A stretch of 44,367 nt of DNA, from positions 1-44,367 of IMG/VR virus record IMGVR_UViG_3300046006_004608; one strand, written 5' to 3'. The position numbers and the translations under genes are program-made. Positions 9,142-42,237 of the stretch are shown piece after piece. Within the stretch, counting starts at the first letter, position 1. Each line of letters starts with the position of its first letter. The notes beneath the pieces are model-generated. The model had not been told where the DNA came from, ran no database searches, and saw nothing but the letters and a program-made list of their open reading frames with translations. Source of the DNA: a virus.

Positions 9142-10383
9142 TTACGGTATAGGACATGTTATGCAAGATGAAGATAAGGTTTCTGTACCTTCAACATACG
9201 TTTGATTACCAAACGTTCCTGGGGTGATTGATGTAATTTCCAAATTAGATCCAGTCTCATTAGGATCAGCCCCTGTTAATGTTATTGTTCCACATGTTTC
9301 TCCTGCTAGTATTGTAGCAGTTCCACTAATAGTACTTGTATCAGCAGCTGTCCAAGTAAGATCAACTGTAACGTTAGTATCTACAGGAGCACTAGCATAC
9401 GCATATGCTACAACATTGCCTGAGCCATTAGCTTGAACACCGGCACATGCCGTAATTGTTATTGTTTCAGGAGCCTCCGTTGTAGTGCTAGTAGTTGTTG
9501 ATGTAGTTGTTGTTGTGGTTGTAGTAGTAGGCTCCGCAGTTGTAGTCGTTGTTGTTGTACTAGTTGTCGTTGTAGGTGCAGCCGTGGTAGTAGTAGTTGT
9601 TGTACTAGTAGTTGTTGGTGCCGTAGTTGTACTAGTTGTTGTGCTAGTAGTTGTTGGTGCCGTAGTTGTACTAGTTGTAGTACTAGTAGTAGTAGTTGGA
9701 GCTGCAGTTGTTGTTGTAGTTGTTGTAGTTGTTGGTGGCGCAGTTGTTGATGTTGTGGTTGTACTAGTTGTTGTAGTAGTAGGGAGACAATCATCAGATG
9801 ATGTAGGAAACATTAATTGATAATCCTGATTAGTAATTATTCCTAATCCATGAGCATAAAATATATTTCCTATATGAGTATTACTAGATTGTGAATCATA
9901 TAGATTACCATATCCATCATCTACTACTCTATAAGCAGAAGAAGATAATATAAATGTGTTTGGTAATATTTTATCACCAAATACACCTTGATTAATTGCT
10001 AATACTCGAATACCTTCCATAGCGCCTGTAGGGAAGTTTTCAACTAATCTAGCACTATCATTATATATAAAATATGATTGTGTAGGTCTTTGTTGTGAAG
10101 CTGATTCGTAATAAATTGAATTAACTAGTGAAGATGTATTTAATAAAGTTGTATACTTTTGATAGAATAGTTGATTTATTTGACTATACAATAAACGCTC
10201 ATATTGTCCTTCACTTTTTGGATCGCTGCCTGAGGAAAAACTACCAGTAAAATTAGTTCCTTTATATATGGTTAAATATTCATTAGATGTTGGAAAGCAA
10301 TCAATAGAAATAGTCCATTGCTTATTAGCATAGTAAGGTACAAATGTAACGTCTGATTTGCTTAACTTTTTGAATGATGCCAT
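9142..10383 (-). CDS. Tail/fibre protein with mucin-like Thr-rich linker
   Basis: 413 aa in three parts. Residues 1-200 are a globular, aromatic-rich N-terminal domain beginning MASFKKLSKSDVTF. Residues 201-306 are almost entirely Thr with Ser and spaced AP/AAP/AEP units. Residues 307-413 are a beta-sandwich-like domain with four Cys near its ends. This is the organisation of an extended, probably O-glycosylated stalk between a tail-anchored and an exposed domain. Two glycosyltransferase genes and an acyltransferase gene follow directly. Receptor binding or mucus/glycan adherence are possible roles. Confidence 0.7.
   Translation of the reverse strand: MASFKKLSKSDVTFVPYYANKQWTISIDCFPTSNEYLTIYKGTNFTGSFSSGSDPKSEGQYERLLYSQINQLFYQKYTTLLNTSSLVNSIYYESASQQRPTQSYFIYNDSARLVENFPTGAMEGIRVLAINQGVFGDKILPNTFILSSSAYRVVDDGYGNLYDSQSSNTHIGNIFYAHGLGIITNQDYQLMFPTSSDDCLPTTTTTSTTTTSTTAPPTTTTTTTTTAAPTTTTSTTTSTTTAPTTTSTTTSTTTAPTTTSTTTTTTTAAPTTTTSTTTTTTTAEPTTTTTTTTTSTTTSTTTEAPETITITACAGVQANGSGNVVAYAYASAPVDTNVTVDLTWTAADTSTISGTATILAGETCGTITLTGADPNETGSNLEITSITPGTFGNQTYVEGTETLSSSCITCPIP
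9466..9783 (-). repeat. Thr-rich low-complexity coding repeat
   Basis: Encodes residues 201-306 of the tail protein, with about 106 codons dominated by ACN in irregular (T)n-S, (T)n-AP and (T)n-AAP units. All third positions vary (ACA, ACT, ACC, ACG), so the protein repeat is conserved without an identical DNA repeat. This suggests selection on the protein rather than recent slippage. Confidence 0.85.
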
Positions 10384-27829: not shown

Positions 27830-27848
27830 ATGTTTAATTTTATTATGT

Positions 27849-27874
27849 GATGAATATATGAACGGGGCTTTGCC
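27849..27874 (-). promoter_or_regulatory. GKCA-class promoter, hairpin-embedded
   Basis: GGCA then TATATTCATC at spacing 16. GGCA spans the end of the 5' arm and the loop of the hairpin at 27862-27878. Confidence 0.7.
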
Positions 27875-27878
27875 CCGT
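27862..27878 (-). terminator. Strong hairpin ACGGGGC-AAA-GCCCCGT
   Basis: Perfect 7-bp GC-rich stem 5 nt after the stop of the 59-aa gene. Its 3' arm is the spacer of the next promoter instead of being followed by Ts. Confidence 0.65.
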
Positions 27879-27882
27879 CCAC

Positions 27883-28221: not shown

Positions 28222-28247
28222 GATGAAGATAGGTGATCATTCCTGAC
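28222..28247 (-). promoter_or_regulatory. GKCA-class promoter at the left edge of the C-less cassette
   Basis: GTCA then TATCTTCATC at spacing 16. It is embedded in hairpin 28232-28251 and drives the 32-aa peptide gene outside the cassette. Confidence 0.65.
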
Positions 28248-28251
28248 CACC
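28232..28251 (-). terminator. Left boundary hairpin of the C-less cassette
   Basis: Minus-strand GGTGGTCA-GGAA-TGATCACC, 8 bp with one G-U and a GNRA loop. Almost the same sequence as the hairpin at 30227-30248. Its arms contain the first Cs of a transcript leaving the cassette. Confidence 0.65.
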
Positions 28252-28259
28252 CACATTTA

Positions 28260-28418
28260 TTATTCTTCTTCTTTTACTACTTTATTTATTTCATCCCTTA
28301 ACCTATCTAATAATAATTCACACTCTTCATTACTTATCATTTTACTTCCTTCACTATACCATCTCATCTTACCTACACAATAATACAAATCATTTAATTC
28401 CTTTAAACTTAAATTCAT
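28260..28418 (-). CDS. C-free gene, 52 aa
   Basis: ATG at 28418, TAA at 28260. It starts MNLSLKELNDLYYCVGKMRW, then a short linker and a helical acidic C-terminus (ECELLLDRLRDEINKVV, EEE). There is no Ala, His, Pro, Gln or Thr. It looks like a two-helix hairpin protein. It is the last gene of the cassette, ending a few bases before the boundary hairpin. No family is recognised. Confidence 0.65.
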   Translation of the reverse strand: MNLSLKELNDLYYCVGKMRWYSEGSKMISNEECELLLDRLRDEINKVVKEEE

Positions 28419-28436
28419 AATTATATTTTTTAATTA

Positions 28437-28462
28437 ATTAAATATACAATATTAATTCTAAC
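28437..28462 (-). promoter_or_regulatory. C-free version of the GKCA-class promoter
   Basis: GTTA then TATATTTAAT at spacing 16, before the 52-aa gene. GTTA is GTCA with C changed to T. Confidence 0.6.
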
Positions 28463-28471
28463 AAAACAAAT

Positions 28472-28570
28472 TTAATTTTTTCTTCTATCTAATTCTACTT
28501 TATAACTAATACTAATAAAAATAACATTAAATAAAATAGTAAATAAAATAACATAATTAATTAAATTCAT
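28472..28570 (-). CDS. Membrane micropeptide, 32 aa, holding the cassette's only C
   Basis: ATG at 28570, TAA at 28472. MNLINYVILFTILFNVIFIS forms one transmembrane helix, followed by a basic tail (KVELDRRKN). The single C of the cassette (G at 28539 on the plus strand) is in an ACT codon for Thr11. It has its own C-free promoter, which supports expression. Confidence 0.5.
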   Translation of the reverse strand: MNLINYVILFTILFNVIFISISYKVELDRRKN

Positions 28571-28589
28571 AATAATAATTTTTAATTTA

Positions 28590-28615
28590 AATAAATATAC
28601 ACTATTAATTCTAAC
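28590..28615 (-). promoter_or_regulatory. C-free version of the GKCA-class promoter
   Basis: GTTA then TATATTTATT at spacing 16, before the 32-aa membrane peptide gene. Confidence 0.6.
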
Positions 28616-28628
28616 TAAACTAATTTAT

Positions 28629-28913
28629 TTAATACCTAATTACTTCTTTAAATCTACAAACTATATCATTTTCTTCTACACTAAAAATATATTCTATTCC
28701 ATCATCATCATTTTTATATTTTATTTCTTTCACTTCATTAATATAATCTCTCATTTCATAAAACATATTTACATCTTCTTCATCATAATTATCTAAATCT
28801 CCTTTTTCAATTTCTTCATATCTAAACTCTACTAATTCTCCTTCATCATACTCATTATCATTTCCACAATTAAAATCATAAATCATACTTTCTAAATAAT
28901 TTTCAATAATCAT
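28629..28913 (-). CDS. C-free gene, 94-aa acidic protein
   Basis: Starts MIIENYLESMIYDFNCGNDNE. Strongly acidic (YDEGELVEF, EEIEKGDLDNYDEEDVN), ending with alternating strands (IEYIFSVEENDIVCRFKEV). It lacks Ala, His, Pro, Gln and Thr. The high D/E content partly follows from C-free codons (GAT, GAA), so DNA mimicry cannot be claimed from charge alone. No family is recognised. Confidence 0.7.
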   Translation of the reverse strand: MIIENYLESMIYDFNCGNDNEYDEGELVEFRYEEIEKGDLDNYDEEDVNMFYEMRDYINEVKEIKYKNDDDGIEYIFSVEENDIVCRFKEVIRY

Positions 28914-28931
28914 AATTATATTTTTTAATTA

Positions 28932-28957
28932 ATTAAATATACAATATTAATTCTAAC
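28932..28957 (-). promoter_or_regulatory. C-free version of the GKCA-class promoter
   Basis: GTTA then TATATTTAAT at spacing 16, before the 94-aa gene. Nearly identical over 30 bases to the promoter at 28437. Confidence 0.6.
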
Positions 28958-28966
28958 TAAACTAAT

Positions 28967-29266
28967 TTATTTAATAACTAATAAATTATATTCATCCATA
29001 TACTTATTAAAATTATTCTCCTCATTATATTCCTTTAAAAATTCATATATCCAATCAAAATCACCACCTTCAAACTCTATCATTTCTTTTTCAACTAATC
29101 TATCTAATATCAAATAAAAATACCAAATATAATTTCCACCACTTACTTCTTCATCTCCAATTCCATCACATACTTTTTTATACTTATTACTAATCTTTAT
29201 CTTATCATCACCTTCACATACTTCAATCCACATCCATTCTTTTAAATCTTTTAAATTTAATTTCAT
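28967..29266 (-). CDS. C-free gene, 99 aa
   Basis: Starts MKLNLKDLKEWMWIEVCEGDDKI, with a helical, aromatic centre (NYIWYFYLILDRLVEKEMIEF) and YEFLKEYNEENNF near the end. A normal soluble fold seems likely despite the complete absence of Ala, His, Pro, Gln and Thr. No family is recognised. Confidence 0.7.
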   Translation of the reverse strand: MKLNLKDLKEWMWIEVCEGDDKIKISNKYKKVCDGIGDEEVSGGNYIWYFYLILDRLVEKEMIEFEGGDFDWIYEFLKEYNEENNFNKYMDEYNLLVIK

Positions 29267-29286
29267 ATTTTTAATTTTTAATTATA

Positions 29287-29312
29287 ATTAAATATACACA
29301 ATTAATTCTAAC
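29287..29312 (-). promoter_or_regulatory. C-free version of the GKCA-class promoter
   Basis: GTTA then TATATTTAAT at spacing 16, before the 99-aa gene. Confidence 0.6.
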
Positions 29313-29321
29313 AATACAAAT

Positions 29322-29513
29322 TTATTTTAATAATATTATACAATATTCTTTACCATCATCATCCCAATTACTATCATCAATATTATTACCTTTATATACT
29401 TTATTAACATCTATTTTAACCATAAATTCATCACCATCACTATCAAATTCACCTAATACATCTAATTCACCATTAAATTTACTTAATAAACTAATTAATT
29501 CTTTTACTTTCAT
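29322..29513 (-). CDS. C-free gene, 63 aa, paralogue of the normal gene at 30733-30996
   Basis: MKVKELISLLSKFNGELDVLG aligns with MTIKDLIEQLSKFNPETEVLG of the 87-aa protein encoded outside the cassette. The middle (VKIDVNKV, NIDDSN, DDDG) and the end (YCIILL versus VVLLNL) also correspond. Where the outside protein has Thr, Gln or Pro, this one has Val, Leu, Gly or other residues whose codons need no C. This is the clearest evidence that an ordinary gene family was recoded or mutated to lose C. The family is a small alpha/beta phage protein of unknown function. Confidence 0.75.
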   Translation of the reverse strand: MKVKELISLLSKFNGELDVLGEFDSDGDEFMVKIDVNKVYKGNNIDDSNWDDDGKEYCIILLK

Positions 29514-29533
29514 ACTTTAATTTTTTAATTATA

Positions 29534-29559
29534 ACTAAATATACATAATTAATTTTAAT
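29534..29559 (-). promoter_or_regulatory. C-free promoter variant
   Basis: ATTA then TATATTTAGT at spacing 16, before the 63-aa gene. The first base differs from GTTA. Confidence 0.5.
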
Positions 29560-29573
29560 TAAACTAATTTACT

Positions 29574-29828
29574 TTAATAATTAAAATCAATACATCTACT
29601 CATTCTCATTCCCCATCCACTTTCACCCTCCACAAATTCAATACCTTCTAAACTCAATATTTTTTTACACTTCACCCAATTCACTCTACTACCTAATTTC
29701 CAACTCTCTCTACAAATCCTAAATCTATCCTTTTTATCCCCTCTATTACTCATACACATAATAAACACTCCATTTCCACACTTACTAAACATTTCATCTA
29801 ATTCATTCAATTTTAATTCTATACTCAT
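29574..29828 (-). CDS. C-free gene, 84-aa Cys-containing protein
   Basis: Start chosen at the ATG at 29828 (MSIELKLNELDEMFSKCGNG); the longer reading from 29861 would overlap the -10 box of its promoter. It contains five Cys, unusually many, plus Trp and Arg (RFRICRESWKLGSRVNWVKC). It is basic, unlike its acidic neighbours. Cys pairs could bind metal, but no standard finger spacing is seen. No Ala, His, Pro, Gln or Thr. Confidence 0.65.
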   Translation of the reverse strand: MSIELKLNELDEMFSKCGNGVFIMCMSNRGDKKDRFRICRESWKLGSRVNWVKCKKILSLEGIEFVEGESGWGMRMSRCIDFNY

Positions 29829-29845
29829 AATTAATAATTTATTTA

Positions 29846-29871
29846 TACAAATATACATCATTAATCACAAT
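29846..29871 (-). promoter_or_regulatory. C-free promoter variant
   Basis: ATTG then TATATTTGTA at spacing 16, before the 84-aa gene; here the -10 region also matches the Bacteroidota TAnnTTTG form exactly. Confidence 0.5.
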
Positions 29872-29895
29872 TAAACTAATTTATTTTTTTATCCA

Positions 29896-30138
29896 TCACC
29901 TCCTCCTCAACTCAAAATCAATACCTACCCTATTTAACCACATATCCAAATCAATATCCTCCACACTATCCACTCTAAACATCTCCACATCATCCTCTAC
30001 ACTATAAATTCCTATCTCACTCATTATCTCACTTACATCACCCTCACTTAATACAAATCTCTCCATCAACAAATCACTACTAACCTTATAATCTCTAACT
30101 AAATCACCATCATCATCAATACAATAAATTTTAATCAT
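29896..30138 (-). CDS. C-free gene, 80-aa acidic protein (first in cassette)
   Basis: Starts MIKIYCIDDDGDLVRDYKVSS. It has two or three acidic helices (EGDVSEIMSEIGIYSVEDDVEMF, read in parts) and ends in Arg residues (ELRRR). It lacks Ala, His, Pro, Gln and Thr. It is promoter-proximal in the cassette. No family is recognised. Confidence 0.7.
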   Translation of the reverse strand: MIKIYCIDDDGDLVRDYKVSSDLLMERFVLSEGDVSEIMSEIGIYSVEDDVEMFRVDSVEDIDLDMWLNRVGIDFELRRR

Positions 30139-30151
30139 AATTATTAATTTA

Positions 30152-30177
30152 TATAAATATAATAAATTAATTATAAC
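30152..30177 (-). promoter_or_regulatory. C-free promoter, most upstream in the cassette
   Basis: GTTA then TATATTTATA at spacing 16. A transcript from here to 28246 would contain one C. Confidence 0.6.
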
Positions 30178-30218
30178 AAAACAAATATATTTTAAATTAA
30201 TTATGTTAAGATAATATT

Positions 30219-31035: not shown

Positions 31036-31040
31036 CATGT

Positions 31041-31068
31041 AAAAAAGCCCCGGGTAGAAACCCAGGGC
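31041..31068 (-). terminator. Intrinsic terminator
   Basis: Minus-strand GCCCTGGGT-TTCT-ACCCGGGGC (9 bp with one G-U) followed by TTTTTT, after the 132-aa gene. Confidence 0.85.
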
Positions 31069-31101
31069 GTAATCATTAAAAATTAAAAGTATGAACTATC
31101 T

Positions 31102-32872: not shown

Positions 32873-32885
32873 AATTTTTAATTTC

Positions 32886-32911
32886 GATAAATATACGAGA
32901 CCGGTTTTGAC
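32886..32911 (-). promoter_or_regulatory. GKCA-class promoter embedded in a hairpin
   Basis: GTCA sits in the loop and the first 3' stem base of the 32895-32920 hairpin; TATATTTATC follows at spacing 16, sharing its first T with the end of the stem. Confidence 0.75.
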
Positions 32912-32920
32912 CGATCTCGT
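32895..32920 (-). terminator. Long hairpin overlapping a promoter
   Basis: Minus-strand ACGAGATCGGT-CAAA-ACCGGTCTCGT, 11 bp with one T-G. It lies 12 nt past the stop of the 73-aa gene; instead of a T-run, the next -10 box follows. Confidence 0.75.
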
Positions 32921-32932
32921 ATATTATTTCAA

Positions 32933-37017: not shown

Positions 37018-37023
37018 AGTTAT

Positions 37024-37095
37024 TTATTTTTGATTAATTCTACGAACATTTTCATTGATAGCATAAAGCAAAATAGCAATAACAATATACATCAT
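37024..37095 (-). CDS. Membrane micropeptide, 23 aa
   Basis: ATG at 37095, TAA at 37024. MMYIVIAILLYAINENVRRI is one short membrane helix with a basic C-terminus. The support is its position: it directly follows a hairpin-promoter and the standard A/T-rich leader of this region. Confidence 0.4.
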   Translation of the reverse strand: MMYIVIAILLYAINENVRRINQK

Positions 37096-37109
37096 AACTT
37101 ATTTATTTA

Positions 37110-37136
37110 GATGAAGGTAGGCGGCTTAAAGCCGCC
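37110..37136 (-). promoter_or_regulatory. GKCA-class promoter embedded in a hairpin
   Basis: GGCG then TACCTTCATC at spacing 17. The hairpin 37116-37140 covers GGCG and the spacer. Confidence 0.55.
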
Positions 37137-37140
37137 CACC
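37116..37140 (-). terminator. Hairpin after the 128-aa gene
   Basis: Minus-strand GGTGGGCGGCT-TTA-AGCCGCCTACC, 11 bp with one G-U, which fits function in minus-strand RNA. It overlaps the next promoter. Confidence 0.7.
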
Positions 37141-37148
37141 AAATTTAT

Positions 37149-38445: not shown

Positions 38446-38460
38446 AACTTATTTATTTGA

Positions 38461-38487
38461 AATGAAGGTAGGCACAATTATTGTGCC
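38461..38487 (-). promoter_or_regulatory. GKCA-class promoter embedded in a hairpin
   Basis: GGCA then TACCTTCATT at spacing 17, before the 178-aa gene. GGCA begins the 5' arm of the hairpin at 38467-38491. Confidence 0.6.
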
Positions 38488-38491
38488 CACC
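38467..38491 (-). terminator. Hairpin overlapping a promoter
   Basis: Minus-strand GGTGGGCACAA-TAA-TTGTGCCTACC, 11 bp with one G-U. The outer part (GGTGGGC...GCCTACCTTCAT) is the same as at 37116. Confidence 0.7.
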
Positions 38492-38515
38492 AAATTAACT
38501 ATTAAATACTAATAA

Positions 38516-39598: not shown

Positions 39599-39610
39599 AT
39601 AATTTGTTTT

Positions 39611-39636
39611 AATAAATATATGATGGGGGTTTTGAC
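39611..39636 (-). promoter_or_regulatory. GKCA-class promoter embedded in a hairpin
   Basis: GTCA lies in the loop of hairpin 39622-39645 and TATATTTATT starts at spacing 16; CCCCC of the spacer is the 3' stem. Confidence 0.75.
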
Positions 39637-39645
39637 ACCCCCACC
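39622..39645 (-). terminator. Hairpin overlapping a promoter
   Basis: Minus-strand GGTGGGGG-TGTCAAAA-CCCCCATC, with five consecutive G-C pairs plus outer pairs including one G-U. It follows the DUF932-like gene stop by 8 nt. Confidence 0.7.
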
Positions 39646-39653
39646 ATTATTAA

Positions 39654-41748: not shown

Positions 41749-41943
41749 TTATTTTATCCAGTTATAAGCAAATGCGTCTTGTTCTAATTTAGTTCTTGGC
41801 TTTGATTCGGGGCGGGTTGTTATTTTAGGTTTACGACCTCGTCTATTACTAGGTTTGTCTTCTATAGCATCCCATTTCCATTTTTTTACTTTCTCTAAAA
41901 ATGCTGCTCTATATTTTGCTAAGCGTTCTTGTTCTGTTCTCAT
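41749..41943 (-). CDS. Small basic protein with AT-hook-like motif, 64 aa
   Basis: Helix MRTEQERLAKYRAAFLEKVKKW followed by NRRGRKPKITTRPESKPRTK, which contains an RGRKP AT-hook-like core. Probably binds DNA. It is the third protein in this window with such a motif. The pseudoknot-like element at 41956-42029 forms its leader. Confidence 0.55.
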   Translation of the reverse strand: MRTEQERLAKYRAAFLEKVKKWKWDAIEDKPSNRRGRKPKITTRPESKPRTKLEQDAFAYNWIK

Positions 41944-41955
41944 AATTTAAAGATT

Positions 41956-42029
41956 TAGGAGAGGCTACCTACTAACACCTCACACCCGATTTATAGGTAG
42001 GTCGGGTCACTTAACCTCTCCTATTTTTT
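41956..42029. ncRNA. Candidate pseudoknot RNA or leader element
   Basis: Outer stem TAGGAGAGG (41956-41964) with CCTCTCCTA (42015-42023), a perfect 9 bp. Inside, CTACCTA (41965-41971) can pair with TAGGTAG (41994-42000), and ACCCGA (41984-41989) with TCGGGT (42002-42007). These two pairings interleave, giving an H-type pseudoknot within a closing stem. On the plus strand a T6 run (42024-42029) follows at once, as for an intrinsic terminator. On the minus strand it is the leader of the 64-aa basic protein gene. No recognised family; strand of function unknown. Confidence 0.5.
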
Positions 42030-42237
42030 AATTAATGTAATCTAAGATTAATTCTTCGCCATAGCATAATGATTGTAATGTTTTAAATTTAGCTTCATTA
42101 TCTAATGGTTTAGCCTCTTTATAGTCATTACACCATACTAATTCACCACCATACATCAATCCACTAAAGTATTCTAGTTGTGAATTCATTACTATAAACC
42201 ACTCACGCTTCGTTTGTTGTGCTCTTTTCTTCTTCAT
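42028..42237 (-). CDS. Hypothetical protein, 69 aa
   Basis: MKKKRAQQTKREWFIVMNSQLEYF, basic start, then aromatic strands (GGELVWCNDYKEA) and a C-terminal helix. The start could also be the internal ATG near residue 17. It overlaps the 103-aa gene upstream by 35 nt, which is long and makes the internal start more likely. No family is recognised. Confidence 0.5.
   Translation of the reverse strand: MKKKRAQQTKREWFIVMNSQLEYFSGLMYGGELVWCNDYKEAKPLDNEAKFKTLQSLCYGEELILDYIN

Follow-up and report, generated by a model that had tools for sequence, protein, structure and literature searches.

A conserved closed H-type pseudoknot RNA at cistron and tRNA boundaries in Bacteroidota-type phages

Introduction

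Does the dense pairing seen in one intergenic spacer of a viral genome mark an RNA under selection, and if so, which strand carries it and what might it do for the transcript in which it lies? The spacer belongs to a stretch of 44,367 nucleotides (IMG/VR record IMGVR_UViG_3300046006_004608), hereafter the window, and had been predicted from its letters alone to hold a closed H-type pseudoknot with a T6 tail. Our analysis shows a conserved RNA of ~68 nt, encoded in the sense direction and closed around an H-type pseudoknot, that resides in co-directional transcripts and is gained or lost as a unit. As judged against open-licence papers, the family is a previously undescribed small folded RNA. 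Traced from one spacer, it adds a covariation-supported pseudoknot RNA family that neither Rfam 15 nor sequenced phage records contain.

A closed pseudoknot fills a spacer of the window

All genes near the element lie on the minus strand. It takes up the spacer that separates a 69-aa gene from a 64-aa gene (Table 1), neither of which matches Pfam or PHROG. Read on the plus strand, a 9-bp closing stem (TAGGAGAGG at 41956-41964 with CCTCTCCTA at 42015-42023) surrounds a 7-bp pairing (CTACCTA at 41965-41971 with TAGGTAG at 41994-42000) and an interleaved 6-bp pairing (ACCCGA at 41984-41989 with TCGGGT at 42002-42007). The three pairings and the T6 run are present as first described, and the closed H-type pseudoknot is thereby confirmed. 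The homologues described below add a tenth P1 pair in the window, U42014-G41965 on the minus strand. They also redefine the pseudoknot helix to the boundaries given in Table 1, because the outermost pair originally assigned to it, 41965-42000, is lost in relatives whereas 41965-42014 is kept.

The pseudoknot in the window exists and is not a product of chance. With the pseudoknot ignored, the two strands still fold much better than their dinucleotide shuffles, at z scores of -3.9 and -3.8. A closed pseudoknot with stems of at least 8, 6 and 6 bp and modest GC content occurs once in the window outside its skewed region and in none of 200 shuffled copies; at 9, 6 and 7 bp with no GC filter, a single locus arose among 300 shuffled copies.

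Table 1 Coordinates of the element, its parts and the neighbouring genes in the window
Feature	Position	Strand	Remark
Upstream 69-aa gene	42028..42237	-	Stop codon 4 nt before P1
Downstream 64-aa gene, RGRKPK (AT-hook-like) motif	41749..41943	-	Start 12 nt after P1
Whole RNA element, 68 nt	41956..42023	-	Closed H-type pseudoknot; sense to both flanking genes
P1 5' strand (columns 1-10)	42014..42023	-	Pairs covary in alignment A6
J1, unpaired UAAGNG, conserved	42008..42013	-	5 of 6 positions invariant in 29 sequences
P2 5' strand ACCCGA (columns 17-22)	42002..42007	-	P2 paired in 174 of 174 cells
Pseudoknot helix 5' strand (columns 25-31)	41993..41999	-	202 of 203 cells paired
P2 3' strand UCGGGU (columns 35-40)	41984..41989	-	Covariation and cell pairing
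J2, unpaired GUGAGKUGUUA, conserved	41973..41983	-	9 of 11 positions invariant
Pseudoknot helix 3' strand (columns 52-58)	41966..41972	-	Covariation and cell pairing
P1 3' strand (columns 59-68)	41956..41965	-	P1 length varies with tRNA context
T6 run (on the mRNA strand, an A-run after the upstream stop codon)	42024..42029	+	Conserved no further than L002

Other parts of the window are also structured or biased in composition. Strong simple hairpins, not pseudoknots, sit in other spacers of the minus-strand operons (27830-27882, 31039-31101, 32873-32932, 37018-37148, 38446-38515 and 39599-39653) and are followed by AT-rich leaders. The region 28246-30204 is striking in that its 1,959 bases hold a single G on the plus strand, so that several short ORFs have a minus-strand mRNA with essentially no C, and the DNA on to about 31000 is also G-poor. 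A repeated GTTGTTGGTGCCGTAGTTGTACTAG-type sequence occupies 9611-9690 within the ORF at 9142-10383. Another structured spacer, of the form ACTTAGC...GCTAAGT with an inner ACAGT/ACTGT, occurs in two related phages (L004:3484-3546 and L007:674-738) and differs from the element.

Homologues occur in at least three unrelated phage groups

Among relatives of the 64-aa gene, the element is found only in contig L002; in L003, L006, L010 and L011, the homologues of the 69-aa and 64-aa genes abut or overlap with no element between them. Relatives of the 69-aa gene led to the further carriers L033, L050 and L068, and the element of L068 recurs in L069 and L071. Scans with patterns derived from all these carriers raised the total to 46 IMG/VR contigs, which together with the window make up the family (30 distinct sequences). 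A first covariance model gave E values of 1e-11 to 7e-17 on the first 20 new contigs, and covariance model R2 matches the window at 41953-42023 with an E value of 6e-21. All homologues are metagenomic contigs from uncultured phages, many of them fragments. Because the scan patterns demanded several of the conserved loop bases, the family may be more diverse than this set, and the loop invariance is partly a product of the search.

The carriers fall into at least three unrelated phage groups, all of Bacteroidota type. The first comprises the relatives of the window, with the longest records at ~130-180 kb and a baseplate protein nearest to that of Flavobacterium phage immuto. In the second group, a primase-like protein has its nearest counterpart in a 61-kb Manatee Spring podovirus, followed by those of Flavobacterium phages, and in the third the terminase is nearest to those of Bacteroides phages. 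We infer Bacteroidota-type hosts for the carriers.

Searches of known families and sequenced genomes gave no second source of the element. Rfam 15 returned nothing but chance matches for the window (E ≤ 10); in a further twelve carrier loci, its matches were confined to tRNA and a single hammerhead, both outside the element. Whole-spacer BLAST against sequenced phages and plasmids gave nothing or chance pieces, the exact core pattern matched only L002, and the element DNA found short chance pieces only in the full records of relatives. A pattern search of a genome collection gave five matches, of which four lie in conserved coding sequence (IKGPDFPTG) and the fifth is without the rest of the element. 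Model R2 found no match in the cultured relatives Immutovirus, Elemovirus, a Manatee Spring podovirus and Bacteroides phage BF1-4, an empty answer that is weak when taken alone.

Covariation supports every helix and G-U pairs identify the mRNA strand

If the pairings matter, related phages should preserve them through compensatory change, as the original prediction had anticipated. This expectation is strongly supported, with compensatory changes above controls in every helix. Across 29 distinct sequences aligned with an ungapped core, 9 of 23 pairs have changed on both sides and all three helices covary. The covariation score of 0.261 compares with 0.149 (sd 0.009) for shuffles, none of 500 of which reaches it, and with at most 0.121 for slid controls. 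Four distinct sequences alone could not be separated from shuffles, whereas 29 can. The shuffles leave relatedness in, and the argument rests on the slid controls together with the multiple pair types observed. The P2 pair 21-36 is seen as C-G, G-C, U-A and A-U, all four Watson-Crick types, and pair 18-39 of the same helix as C-G and U-A with U-G intermediates. Similarly, the pseudoknot pair 30-53 alternates between A-U and G-C, and the P1 pair 10-59 among C-G, U-A and U-G.

The same alignment distinguishes the strands. On the sense strand, 100% of cells are paired in P2, 99.5% in the pseudoknot helix and 98.6% in inner P1, as compared with 98.9%, 87.7% and 93.1%, respectively, on the antisense strand, and every observed G-U pair falls on the minus (mRNA) strand. 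Therefore, the RNA corresponds to the minus strand of the window, the strand of the mRNA. An antisense small RNA on the plus strand with its own T6 terminator, which had been suggested by the stable stem of the window and the T6 run behind it, is not supported by these data and is extremely improbable: the T6 run is limited to the window and its nearest relative, L002, pairing on the plus strand is worse, and no plus-strand gene lies nearby. A plus-strand intrinsic terminator was likewise rejected, as the T run after the stem is not conserved.

Outside the helices, J1, the loop bases CC and AA, and J2 are nearly invariant, although limited divergence, and not function, may account for some of this conservation. 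A possible GAGGUGUU match between J2 and the 16S tail of Bacteroidota was dropped, the position being U in many members.

The element is placed at stop codons and tRNA ends

The genes that flank the element are co-directional with the RNA; the few minus-strand calls at carrier loci are small ORFs, several of which overlap tRNA-like sequence. Where no tRNA lies upstream, the element starts between -13 and +8 nt from the upstream stop codon. In L143, L147, L148, L153, L156, L161, L162 and L165, an upstream 68-aa HTH-type gene ends within J1, whose conserved UAA serves as its stop codon. The element is fused directly to the 3' end of a tRNA or tRNA-like sequence in 26 of 45 loci and lies directly before a tRNA-like 5' end in another 4, while the remaining 15 have neither context. 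The window copy is unfused. At the junction between an HTH gene and an MPRMLPK gene, both arrangements are found, with the pseudoknot alone in L143 and a tRNA-like sequence plus the pseudoknot in L141.

The length of P1 differs with this context: free copies have 9-11 bp, those that precede a tRNA 7-10 bp and those joined to a tRNA 3' end 3-6 bp, such that fused copies (3-6 bp) and all others (7-11 bp) have non-overlapping ranges. The window and its clade are without this tRNA-like RNA; with no tRNA adjacent, the 10-bp P1 of the window would close the domain alone. Among the tRNA partners, the acceptor and T arm are held in common (TAGTCAGG/CCTGACTA), but the middles, comprising the anticodon and variable regions, are very different; the partner in L160 is a canonical tRNA. 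Together, the tRNA-like fusion and the context-dependent length of P1 bear on the role of small RNAs beside phage tRNAs. The tRNA-like sequences form a family of their own, seen in L139, L140, L144, L145, L151, L152, L154, L159, L160, L167, L171 and others, sited between short genes and present in three copies in the records of L139, L151 and L167.

Flanking genes vary between clades, and the function of the element is therefore not tied to one gene. This bears on the possibility of a riboswitch or a protein-bound translational regulator acting on the downstream DNA-binding gene. Such a role would suit the window, L033 and L050, in all of which the element lies 12-15 nt before the start codon of an RGRKPK gene. 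However, elsewhere the element precedes unrelated genes, or precedes or follows tRNA-like genes, and most phages with this gene pair are without it, which leaves the regulator highly unlikely. As such, the earlier placement of the element in the leader of a DNA-binding gene holds locally, 12 nt before the RGRKPK gene, and does not extend to a dedicated regulator, given the varied neighbours and the close relatives that lack the element.

The element is gained and lost as a unit

L068 and L051 are nearly identical across the junction once a clean 76-bp element, bordered by TAAA on either side, is set aside, and an inserted stretch of about 87 nt distinguishes the window from L003 where their junctions correspond. 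In the gene tree, carriers are scattered among non-carriers, and L033 and L068 share identical elements beside an adjacent gene that is 85% identical. This presence pattern fits repeated gain, loss or recombination. The clean presence and absence with its flanking TAAA repeat, and an element more conserved across clades than the adjacent gene, are also what would be expected of a selfish mobile sequence that inserts at cistron or tRNA boundaries with no benefit to the phage. We consider such a sequence improbable. The element is never multicopy, the covariation, including that of the pseudoknot, implies selection on the RNA, and no associated recombinase was seen. It occurs exactly once per record, in 42 records and in those of L033, L050, L068, L069 and L071, many of these records being fragments; within this limit, the single copy does not fit a multicopy mobile repeat of the MITE or REP type.

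A candidate structural unit at RNA ends

The reading that we tentatively favour, and that stops just short of being called probable, is a cis-acting, gene-independent structural unit that would define RNA ends, or protect them, where cistrons and tRNAs border on other sequence. A cis role at such ends is suggested because placement tracks stop codons and tRNA ends, not particular genes. In the proposed sequence of events, the transcript carrying the element would fold, a cut might then be made at the edge of the element by tRNA-processing enzymes (where a tRNA-like sequence is fused), by host ribonucleases or by the RNA itself, and the compact pseudoknot would cap the new RNA end. The stop codon inside J1 in L143-type loci counts against this explanation, as a cut at the 5' edge would remove that stop codon.

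A single copy per record is also uncommon among general punctuation or stability elements, and would suit an RNA acting in trans, carried in mRNA or tRNA transcripts, freed by processing and serving as a protein decoy, an anti-defence RNA or a regulator. Unrelated neighbours and phage types, patchy presence and conserved unpaired segments point the same way, as does the frequent linkage to tRNA or tRNA-like genes, which is known for GOLLD and ROOL (PMC12286853). However, the consistent site right after stop codons or tRNA ends suggests a logic in cis, no promoter or terminator of its own was identified, and no target is known. We regard a trans-acting RNA as possible but rather unlikely.

Comparison with ribozymes and other known systems

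The catalytic version of the structural unit, with which its probability overlaps, would be a new small self-cleaving ribozyme class whose core cuts its own transcript and thereby frees tRNA 3' ends or splits cistrons. This version appears doubtful, though possible. The size, the pseudoknot and the ~18 near-invariant unpaired nucleotides fit the criteria by which candidates were picked in PMC10085705, but ten motifs picked elsewhere by similar criteria did not cleave (PMC10085705). The genomic context matches that of theta ribozymes (PMC10879173), and one carrier, L140, contains a hammerhead-like RNA. Against catalysis, no known ribozyme family matches the element, an HDV-type descriptor found it in no segment, and the J1 stop codon in L143-type loci argues against cleavage at the 5' edge.

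An HDV-type fold, that is, a nested double pseudoknot with a 7-bp P1 at the cleavage site, P2, a 3-bp P3 with L3, and a C in J4/2, was sought with a loose custom descriptor and found in 0 of 45 carrier segments. The element has only 3 nt where P3 and L3 of HDV must be, and the Rfam HDV model gave no match in the window or in twelve other carrier loci. The type III hammerhead ribozyme (RF00008) is likewise small, structured and present in phages of this kind, but the element is without the hammerhead core. The hammerhead type III-like sequence at L140:340-394 reaches 46.9 bits, slightly short of the 48.5 set as gathering score.

Similarly, GOLLD and ROOL are structured phage RNAs of unknown function that often lie near tRNA islands (PMC12286853), but they are multi-stem RNAs of hundreds of nucleotides, whereas the element has 68 nt and neither sequence nor Rfam match to them. 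The tRNA-like structures of the carriers are found at the same boundaries between genes and are frequently joined to the element, which itself lacks the tRNA fold.

The closest parallel is with the theta ribozymes, which are HDV-like, associated with phage tRNAs and found in Caudoviricetes with mostly Bacteroidota hosts (Kienbeck et al. 2024, PMC10879173). They lie directly after tRNA 3' ends that have no encoded CCA and also occur as isolated sense copies (PMC10879173). In the tRNA-associated subset, the cleavage site falls within 5 nt of a tRNA 3' end; of the loci studied here, 26 of 45 have the element joined to such an end, and the window copy is not one of them. It is conceivable, though fairly unlikely on our estimate, that the element represents a new ribozyme class, built as one stem around an H-type pseudoknot, that would cut tRNA 3' ends and cistron boundaries in Bacteroidota phages and would have converged on the use made of theta ribozymes with a different fold. 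The two differ in helix order, the element being one stem that encloses a simple H-type pseudoknot, yet both are small pseudoknotted RNAs found mainly in Bacteroidota phages, after tRNA 3' ends without an encoded CCA and as isolated non-coding copies in the sense orientation.
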